This document shows, in pieces, positions 23,209 to 24,375 of a DNA stretch of 33,454 nucleotides. Position numbers and translations under genes: made by a program. This DNA comes from Alphaproteobacteria bacterium. Its GTDB lineage: Bacteria; Pseudomonadota; Alphaproteobacteria; Micavibrionales; Micavibrionaceae. The DNA is taken from contig JAUHXT010000018.1 of assembly GCA_030426925.1 (NCBI GenBank), positions 1 through 33,454 of the forward strand, read 5' to 3'. The notes beneath the pieces are model-generated. The model was not told where the DNA came from. It ran no database searches and saw nothing but the letters and a program-made list of their open reading frames with translations. Numbering within the stretch: the stretch's first letter is position 1; each line of letters begins with the position of its first letter.

Positions 23209-23802
23209 ATGAACTTGATTTTGATAGGCCCCCCGGGCGCTGGAAAAGGAACACAGGCCAAGATTCTGGAAGACAAATACGGTCTGAAACAGCTGTCCAC
23301 CGGTGACATGCTGCGCGCGGAAGTTGCTTCCGGTTCCGACCTCGGTAAAAAAGCCAAGGACATCATGGACCGTGGAGACCTGGTCCCCGACGACCTGATC
23401 GTTGATATGATTGCATCCCGCATGGAAGCCGATGACTGCAAAAACGGCGTCATTTTTGATGGTTTCCCCCGTACGGTCGATCAGGCGCAGGCGCTGGATT
23501 CCATGCTGTCGGAAAAGGGCAACCCGCTGGCCGCCGTCATCCTGTTCGAAGTGGACGAAGAAGAGCTGGTTGGCCGCCTGAATACCCGCGTGGAACAGGC
23601 AAAAGCGGCCGGGCAGGAGGTGCGTGCGGATGATAACGAAGAAACCCTGCGTAACCGCCTGCAGGTCTACCGCAATCAGACAGCGCCCATCATTCCATAT
23701 TACGAAGCGGAGGATATGCTCTCCCGCGTGGATGGCATGGCTTCGATTGACGAAGTCTCGGCCTCCGTTGCCTCTATTCTGGATAAGGCCAAAGCAGCCT
23801 AA
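23209..23802 (+). CDS. adk: adenylate kinase (short-LID form)
   Basis: Converts ATP and AMP to two ADP. The P-loop is GPPGAGKGT at residues 7-15, AMP-binding residues lie in STGDMLR and DGFPRTVDQA, and the C-terminal core is present. With 197 residues it lacks the long LID with zinc cysteines seen in the 214-residue type; a short linker (RVEQAKAAGQEVRADDNEE) takes its place. secY-adk is a common pair. No terminator is visible after it. Confidence 0.98.
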   Translation: MNLILIGPPGAGKGTQAKILEDKYGLKQLSTGDMLRAEVASGSDLGKKAKDIMDRGDLVPDDLIVDMIASRMEADDCKNGVIFDGFPRTVDQAQALDSMLSEKGNPLAAVILFEVDEEELVGRLNTRVEQAKAAGQEVRADDNEETLRNRLQVYRNQTAPIIPYYEAEDMLSRVDGMASIDEVSASVASILDKAKAA

Positions 23803-23821: not shown

Positions 23822-23849
23822 TTGACAGGACCCGCATTATGCCTATAAT
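23822..23849 (+). promoter_or_regulatory. promoter with consensus hexamers for rpsM-rpsK-rpoA-rplQ
   Basis: TTGACA (23822-23827) and TATAAT (23844-23849) both match the sigma70 consensus exactly and are 16 bp apart. The predicted start is near 23856, giving a leader of about 150 nt to rpsM. The -10 box is buried in the dyad described separately. Confidence 0.9.
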
Positions 23850-23853
23850 GCGG
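23832..23853. promoter_or_regulatory. perfect 9-4-9 dyad overlapping the -10 box (candidate operator)
   Basis: CCGCATTAT (23832-23840) and ATAATGCGG (23845-23853) are perfect reverse complements separated by GCCT. The right arm contains five of the six bases of the -10 hexamer and the left arm lies in the spacer. A dimeric DNA-binding protein here would block polymerase. The binder is unknown. Confidence 0.6.
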
Positions 23854-24003
23854 CCATCTTAAGCCCCAAAGAGCATAAAACGCCTTATCTAAGGCACTGT
23901 TTTTCCAAGGCTTTTGTTTGGTTTACAAACCGGCGCAGTTAAGTCGACAAAACATGGCTGTTTTACGGTTTGGTTTGATATTAGATAAAAGGAGAGACCG
24001 TCA
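23854..24003 (+). promoter_or_regulatory. structured leader of the rpsM operon
   Basis: No ORF is seen. Two short perfect hairpins occur: GCCTT/AAGGC with loop ATCT near 23882-23895, followed by a T-run (a weak terminator-like shape), and GGTTT/AAACC near 23920-23931. AAAGGAGAG before the rpsM ATG is the ribosome-binding site. A role in autoregulation is possible, but the E. coli S4 pseudoknot cannot be recognised and rpsD is not in this operon. Confidence 0.4.
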
Positions 24004-24375
24004 ATGGCTCGTATTGCCGGGGTAAACGTTCCCGATAAGAAACGTGCAGTGATTGCACTGACATATATTCACGGAATTGGCCGCGCGAAAGCACGTCAAA
24101 TTCTGGATGCTTGTGGTATTGAACGCACAAAGCGCATGTTCGACCTGACAGAAGACGAACTGAACCAGATTCGTGCGGAAGTCGACACAGACAAATACAC
24201 AATCGAAGGGGACCTGCGCCGTGAAGTGTCCATGAACATCAAACGCCTGATGGACATGAAATGCTACCGTGGCCTGCGTCACCGTAACCGTCTGCCCGTC
24301 CGCGGTCAGAACACAAAGACAAATGCCCGTACCCGTAAAGGCCCGGCAAAACCGATCGCCGGTAAGAAGAAGTAA
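24004..24375 (+). CDS. rpsM: 30S ribosomal protein S13
   Basis: S13 bridges the 30S head to the 50S subunit and the P-site tRNA. It has 123 residues: [29 protein letters not shown] at the start and [25 protein letters not shown] at the end, with the usual basic tail. First gene of the alpha operon, with AAAGGAGAG upstream. Confidence 0.98.

Follow-up and report, generated by a model that had tools for sequence, protein, structure and literature searches.

The alpha operon leader of E. coli (Rfam family RF00140, Alpha_RBS), an S4-binding pseudoknot, stands before rpsM. Further candidate S4 leaders have been described before rpsM or rpsD in Clostridia, Fusobacteriales, Bacteroidia and Flavobacteria (PMC7247131). 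At the level of promoter DNA, A/T-rich sequence around -18 is described as stimulatory (PMC12825309). For imperfect inverted repeats, template-switch mutation has been reported in E. coli (PMC7202029) and also in heavily transcribed DNA of RNase H2-deficient yeast (PMC3820800).

The locus compared with these systems is the rpsM-rpsK-rpoA-rplQ operon of a Micavibrio-like alphaproteobacterium (genome of 2.14 Mb with one 16S match), contained in a 33,454-nt stretch of DNA that is referred to here as the window. Its leader RNA occupies the same place before rpsM as RF00140 and, like the leaders of PMC7247131 (which precede the rpsM operon in Clostridia and Fusobacteriales), it is structured and restricted in lineage; the available text of that study gives no rpsM leader for the Alphaproteobacteria. 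Its promoter is similar to sigma-70-type housekeeping promoters in having exact hexamers, an A/T-rich segment near -18 and a GC-rich discriminator, but differs in its 16-bp spacer, in a fixed AAAT-N-C element within that spacer and in a pattern that, in the genomes compared, is almost confined to rpsM.

The rpsM locus and the relatives compared

The window carries a ribosomal-protein cluster (gene names read from ORF translations) consisting of L18, S5, L30, L15, secY, adk, rpsM (S13), rpsK (S11), rpoA and rplQ (L17). The adk stop is at 23802 and the rpsM ATG at 24004, and the promoter sits between them. By eye, the L30-like part of the L30 ORF (20766-21119) is preceded by a long N-terminal extension with many Lys, Ala and Glu residues, and L15 (21145-21681) has a Lys-rich C-terminal tail.

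Searches detected rpsM in 53 of 58 relatives and in 94 of 104 family genomes, and the top rpsM relatives in the named collection were Micavibrio and other alphaproteobacterial MAGs. The 150 rpsM loci were reduced to 110 distinct upstream regions (judged by the last 200 nt), 107 of which contained a promoter candidate and 106 a candidate with TTGAC (92 from the family and 14 from the order), with the window counted at each step. The regions dropped were L063, L160 (with just 14 nt of upstream sequence) and L190, in which a stricter scan found no promoter candidate, and L189, which lacked TTGAC. The compared relatives belong to other genera, so that the host genus is represented by the window alone; the two nearest, L003 and L112 (89% and 88% S13 identity, respectively), belong to a single genus. 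In L003, the nearest relative, approximately 1.1 kb (211-1340) separates adk from the rpsM promoter, a segment that is absent from the window.

A conserved promoter upstream of rpsM

The promoter and its first gene have the following parts:

23822-23827, + strand: -35 hexamer TTGACA of the rpsM-rpsK-rpoA-rplQ promoter (TTGAC in 106 of the 107 loci with a promoter candidate, window counted, in a scan that favours such matches)
23836-23842, + strand: conserved spacer element, ATTATGC at -20 to -14 (family consensus AAAT-N-C at -19 to -14, from 93 promoters)
23844-23849, + strand: -10 hexamer TATAAT, an exact consensus that is conserved in relatives
23850-23855, + strand: GC-rich discriminator GCGGCC (in the family, G/C 96% at -6, C 95% at -5 and G 89% at -4, in a scan that gave a small bonus to CG)
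24004-24375, + strand: rpsM, which encodes ribosomal protein S13 and opens the operon (compared loci at 61-89% S13 identity)

An earlier note on this DNA described both hexamers as exact matches to consensus, and all 12 of the 12 bases of TTGACA-16 bp-TATAAT (23822-23849) agree with it. A transcription start is predicted at approximately 23856 from spacing alone. Among the 110 distinct rpsM upstream regions, 106 contain a TTGAC-N16..18-TATAAT-like promoter, with hexamers 16-18 bp apart at the orthologous place as in promoters of the sigma-70 type. As the scan favours consensus, conservation of the hexamers is partly built in and the columns outside them are the informative ones. In the 93 promoters with a 16-bp spacer, A or T is found at -18 in 92%, A at -17 in 82%, T at -16 in 84% and C at -14 in 84%, and the same promoters have an A/T box upstream of the -35 and a GC-rich discriminator. 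Information per column is high at -18 to -16, at -14, at the -10 and in the discriminator, and does not exceed 0.12 bit in any column from -25 to -21. These comparisons support the view that a strong-looking, conserved promoter would drive rpsM-rpsK-rpoA-rplQ.

The pattern TTGAC-N17-TATAMT-SCGNC has 45 sites in 44 of 103 family genomes and no exact match in the other 59. By position, 42 of the 45 are the rpsM promoter; two lie elsewhere (in G024 and G092) and one (in G020, where rpsM was unmatched) is unplaceable. With a slightly narrower pattern, the host genome has one exact match, the rpsM promoter, and three matches at two mismatches. In genomes with a pattern match, the rpsM promoter thus appears to be close to the sole promoter of its kind. 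No AAAT-N-C spacer element was seen by eye in the family rrn promoter rows. In many of these rows (16S loci L212-L241) the T at -7 is missing, the sequence being TTGACA or TTTACA-N17/18-TATAA with A, C or G as the next base, and a second promoter-like row is often found nearer the 16S gene.

A perfect dyad over the -10 element

The earlier note also reported a perfect dyad covering the -10 of this promoter, and its geometry was confirmed: two 9-nt arms, 100% complementary, flank the 4-nt loop GCCT (a 9-4-9 arrangement). The dyad extends from -24 to -3 and takes in the 3' part of the spacer, the -10 without its first T and the first four bases of the discriminator.

23832-23840, + strand: left arm CCGCATTAT (-24 to -16), composed of a non-conserved GC half (-24 to -21) and an A/T-rich segment (-20 to -16)
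23845-23853, + strand: right arm ATAATGCGG, composed of most of the -10 together with the first four bases of the GC-rich discriminator, in columns that are conserved in relatives

How unusual such a dyad is depends on the question asked. The window has three places (four hits, two of them at the same place) with a perfect inverted repeat of arm length 9 or more and loop length 3-10, and 20 first-order Markov resamples averaged 1.25; a single dyad of this kind at some point in the window is therefore unremarkable. When the spacer letters were shuffled with the -10 and discriminator fixed, arms of at least 9 on this -10 arose with P = 3.5e-4 (200,000 shuffles), a value to be read with the caveat that the dyad was noticed because of its place on the -10. 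The dyad is therefore rare at this spot, not rare per window.

The earlier note proposed that this arrangement is an operator for a dimeric repressor or a structural DNA signal, and it named relatives that keep the -35 and -10 while losing the left arm without compensatory change as the observation that would speak against it. This is the situation in the two nearest relatives: L003 reads TTGACC-ttaaaggctaaatccc-TATAAT-gcggcc with a longest arm of 3 bp, and L112 reads TTGACG-N17-TATATT-gcgcc with a longest arm of 4 bp, so that in this genus the promoter is kept and the dyad is absent. More generally, arms of 5 or less are found in 89 of the 106 loci (the nearest relatives included), and arms of at least 8 in three promoters, those of the window, L055 and L122. 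Among the other loci, L015 alone has the letters CCGCATTAT in its spacer, together with a TAGAAT -10 and arms of 6. The comparison of arm and spacer conservation suggested in the earlier note gave a divided left arm, the GC half of which falls in columns of at most 0.12 bit each and the A/T half of which falls where relatives are A/T-rich, and a conserved right arm.

The genome and relatives were searched for the 22-bp dyad, as the earlier note had also advised. Whether or not the loop letters were left free, the host genome yielded no second site at up to three mismatches. Three of 103 family genomes have the inner dyad, in a single copy each; of the two copies besides that of the host, the one in G084 and its rpsM lie on separate contigs, and the rpsM of G114 was unmatched. 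The arms of a dimeric operator should be conserved, or should change together, in close relatives, and L003 and L112 have no left arm. Arms that differ in a paired manner are confined to comparisons with more distant lineages, for example L055, where the loop also differs. Further genomic sites, also looked for in a dimeric operator, were not found, although a regulator with a single target would lack them too. Because the left arm is absent in the nearest relatives and the genome holds no second site, a sequence-specific operator is unlikely.

Where long arms do occur in other lineages they have other letters: TGGGCGCATTA/TAATGCGCCCA in L055, CGCATTAT/ATAATGCG in L122, GCAATAT/ATATTGC in L019 and GGGCGGA/TCCGCCC in L045. 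Long inverted repeats between the spacer and the -10/discriminator, with differing letters and loops, were observed in L055, L122, L059, L030, L045 and L056.

Complementarity between the spacer and the -10/discriminator

When spacers were swapped among all loci, the number of promoters with arms of at least 6 dropped from 17 to 6.2 ± 1.9 of 106 (observed value reached in 0 of 500 swaps), and without the window the corresponding numbers were 16 and 5.9 of 105 (0 of 500); this free swap is somewhat lenient, as some other segment pairs also gave low values (e.g. mean-based p values of 0.002 and 0.004). In 15 draws of a single locus from each genus (window counted), arms of at least 6 were found in 6-8 of 47 promoters compared to 1.8-3.0 expected, while for arms of at least 7 p ranged from 0.000 to 0.525 across draws.

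A swap confined to members of the same genus (79 promoters in 20 genera) gave a mean longest arm of 4.23 versus 3.96 ± 0.07 (0 of 5000 permutations), and the mirror-repeat control of this swap gave p = 0.35. Out of 11 segment pairs examined within genera, spacer versus -10/discriminator was the strongest (p = 0.0003), followed by pairs at 0.0097 and 0.049. Under altered window and loop settings, the within-genus effect ranged from 0 of 2000 to p = 0.0375; with similar spacers removed it had p = 0.0006 (60 promoters), and with genus g28 also removed, p = 0.0034 (54 promoters). Five genera were examined singly: g28 (p = 0.009) and g3 (p = 0.011, with a mirror control of 0.026) carry most of the effect, and p did not reach 0.1 for g35, g8 or g10 alone. 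The energy of the folded single-strand DNA was lower than that of within-genus chimeras (0 of 3000). The reversed-spacer folding control shifted too (p = 0.008), and therefore composition contributes part of the effect.

The excess is small (0.27 bp on the mean longest arm) and has no fixed letters, position or loop; loops range from 4 to 17 among arms of at least 6. In rrn promoters, no clear effect was found (p = 0.14 and 0.16) in sets of 28 and 20 promoters, which have little power. These 28 P1 and 20 P2 rows were drawn from 30 loci, with L223 left out as a repeat of L220 and L239 lacking a P1 row; the P2 rows of L235 and L237 are doubtful. Dyad symmetry itself is commoner than chance at the rpsM promoter, which stands against a reading by plain chance. 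For the structural signal of the earlier note, the case is weak: a small within-genus excess of complementarity in which neither letters nor geometry are conserved.

Origin of the dyad

We consider it probable that the dyad is a lineage-specific by-product of a conserved near-consensus promoter rather than an operator, and that the leader RNA described below is the likelier site of feedback. The right arm would be kept because the -10 and GC-rich discriminator serve promoter function, and the A/T half of the left arm because the family retains A/T-rich sequence from -20 to -16; its GC half is located in a free stretch of spacer and matches in a few lineages only. The perfect match could most readily have arisen by local template-switch (quasipalindrome) mutation, in which the free arm is rewritten to the complement of the constrained one, with composition assisting in reaching it. 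Template switching of this kind would yield recurrent dyads of variable letters and loops. The likeness to quasipalindrome-associated template switching is that the arms of an imperfect inverted repeat grow more similar; the difference is that for the rpsM dyad the process is deduced from the pattern alone. We favour an origin of this kind, by mutation through template switching with the -10/discriminator as the fixed partner, over selection for DNA structure. Against it, a mutational cause should act elsewhere too, yet the rrn promoters have no clear effect.

Selection might instead act on inverted-repeat symmetry at the -10 and not on its letters, for example as a hairpin- or cruciform-prone element that would assist supercoiling-dependent opening. 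In its favour, spacers are complementary to their own -10/discriminator in the inverted and not the mirror sense (among all loci, with one locus per genus and within genera), arms differ by lineage (as in L055, L122, L019 and L045), and the folding energy is lower than in within-genus chimeras. We nevertheless regard it as unlikely: the gain averages only 0.27 bp, 89 of 106 loci including the nearest relatives have arms no longer than 5, loops of the longer arms span 4 to 17, only g28 and g3 (the latter with its low mirror control) stand out among five genera, and the reversed-spacer control assigns part of the effect to composition. A broader version, in which the rpsM promoter of the Micavibrio family is selected for dyad symmetry with each lineage using its own letters, and in which supercoiling-sensitive opening is joined by the new leader RNA as a second, translational layer, seems to us quite improbable. 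A genus-specific operator, at which a dimeric repressor (or activator) would control rpoA and S13/S11/L17, is likewise quite improbable, and slightly less likely than selection for structure. A perfect 9-4-9 dyad does lie where a repressor would block RNA polymerase, but it is missing from the nearest genus compared, has a single genomic site at up to three mismatches, is largely accounted for by the -10, the discriminator and the -18 A/T segment, and is matched in other lineages by long arms of different letters and geometry.

Two further readings are very improbable. The left arm could be a mirror -10 on the minus strand (CATAAT, which matches 5 of 6 bases) with the same discriminator, making the promoter bidirectional, and pseudo-symmetrical -10 elements do drive divergent transcription in E. 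coli (PMC12825309). The predicted starts are 26 bp apart, however, compared to the preferred 18, 10 and 23 (small variations allowed) given in the same source, the scan called no minus-strand promoter-like site here, and L030, L045, L056 and L188 have long arms without a reverse -10; on spacing and scan the bidirectional promoter was rejected. Alternatively, the dyad could form an RNA hairpin in secY-adk read-through transcripts, as a terminator or a protector of the 3' end. The region 23828-23860 folds as RNA at -12.5 kcal/mol and the dyad lies 30 nt past the adk stop, but the left arm is lost in relatives and no T run follows the dyad (CCATCTTAAG). An intrinsic terminator, for which a G+C-rich hairpin followed by a T run was sought, was rejected, and none was called here in the terminator scan.

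A structured leader RNA before rpsM

A covarying leader RNA was identified at 23911-23991, directly upstream of rpsM, within a transcript predicted to run approximately 148 nt from its start to the gene. Its parts, with a further hairpin nearer the 5' end, are as follows:

23882-23895, + strand: small 5' leader hairpin GCCTTATCTAAGGC (other self-complementary hairpins are seen there by eye in some close relatives)
23911-23922, + strand: P0 5' strand, pairing with 23980-23991 (clear by eye in some near relatives only)
23926-23932, + strand: P1 5' strand CAAACCG (covariation; within the match to model R1)
23936-23939, + strand: P2 5' strand CAGT, pairing with 23957-23960
23957-23960, + strand: P2 3' strand GCTG (covariation; within the R1 match)
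23966-23972, + strand: P1 3' strand CGGTTTG (covariation; within the R1 match)
23980-23991, + strand: P0 3' strand ATTAGATAAAAG, which reaches into the beginning of the Shine-Dalgarno AGGAG (23990-23994)

At the 5' end of the leader, the hairpin GCCTTATCTAAGGC is followed by ACTGTTTTTCC, possibly an attenuator or a structural domain.

The fold shared among relatives is built on a 7-bp helix, P1, which closes a 6-nt loop in the short form and a longer insert in the others. The insert of 28 long forms comprises a stem P2 and a small stem P3 around an NUAACGN-like loop; the window has P1 and P2 but no P3 loop of that kind. The P1 filter was passed by 78 of 107 loci with distinct cores (20 short and 58 long). 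Alignment A1 contains the 20 short forms and A2 contains 28 of the 58 long forms, picked by eye for a loop around UAA. P1 pairing was used to choose these sequences, so that its 100% pairing is by construction, and pairing in P2 and P3 was not used. In A1, 21 cells of P1 carry changes on both sides (0 of 500 shuffles), while two of five measures were within the range of the shuffles (pairs changed on both sides, 187 of 500; further pair types, 40 of 500). In A2, 10 of 13 pairs are changed on both sides, with 47 such cells (0 of 500 shuffles for the whole structure), and this includes all six P2 and P3 pairs, each changed on both sides in some sequence.

The window belongs to neither training set, and model R1 matches it at 23920-23983 with 40.2 bits (E-value: 6.2e-12). 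The short-form model R2 was found in 44 of 142 order genomes, in 44 of 44 cases directly before rpsM (41 by coordinates and three by tblastn). Across 337 class genomes, R1 has a match in 11, and the three from the family are at rpsM; the matches in the other eight are weak (E-values 3e-4 to 0.009) with no rpsM in the fetched 3 kb, as is a second, weak match in G010. A fold that covaries, placed in the 5' leader of an operon for ribosomal proteins, is expected of ribosomal-protein leader RNAs, and on these alignments we regard the element as a candidate new leader of this type.

In the minimum-energy fold of the window, 23912-23922 pairs with 23980-23990, and 23899-23906 with 23991-23998 as part of a further predicted helix (23896-23906 with 23991-24001), so that AGGAG is paired over its full length of five bases. 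The energy of the fold is ordinary (z = -1.20, with 27 of 200 shuffles folding at least as well). P0 is strong in the window, but its pairing over 77 loci was not above permutation (p = 0.12 overall and 0.38 within genera).

Only one Rfam family was hit in the window, Alpha_RBS (RF00140), at 35 bits versus a gathering threshold of 38. Membership of the window was rejected: the alignment rests mainly on the start of the rpsM coding sequence, and its helix uses bases other than those of P1 and P2, so that its pairs differ from the covarying helices. In relatives, Alpha_RBS matched in 20 of the 20 scanned, at 24.1-45.3 bits, with 6 of the 20 at or above gathering; at the rpsM of 11 control loci outside the Alphaproteobacteria, it scored 19.6-23.8 bits in the four where it was listed. 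Some alpha-operon leader signal, or a distant relation, may thus be present in the relatives. Mimicry of 16S rRNA, suspected from 16S motifs as a helix-31-like loop, was likewise rejected, as the 28 A2 sequences locally aligned to the host 16S showed no consistent place (p = 0.05-0.87). The main text of a study of the RNAs of an alphaproteobacterium (PMC2704228) does not mention rpsM, and a literature search on rpsM or S13 leaders found no such paper among the matches listed, as judged partly by titles or the openings of abstracts.

Implications for control of the operon

Feedback on the operon would most likely act at a later step than the promoter, via the structured leader RNA that lies ahead of the rpsM start codon. 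The predicted leader fold of the window would pair the Shine-Dalgarno sequence; P1 and P2 are backed by covariation, and a ligand and its effect are putative. The leader RNA is accordingly a likelier means of control of this operon than the dyad. Of the strong promoter under tight control proposed in the earlier note, the conserved, strong-looking promoter is upheld and the leader RNA adds a further control-like element, while the operator for a dimeric repressor is not sustained.

A tempting but weak operator assignment can thus be replaced by two checkable facts: a promoter architecture that, in the genomes compared, is nearly exclusive to a single operon, and a covarying leader RNA before rpsM. 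If the tendency toward dyads at this promoter were due to selection and not to mutation, the family would present an unusual case of DNA symmetry that is kept without its letters.
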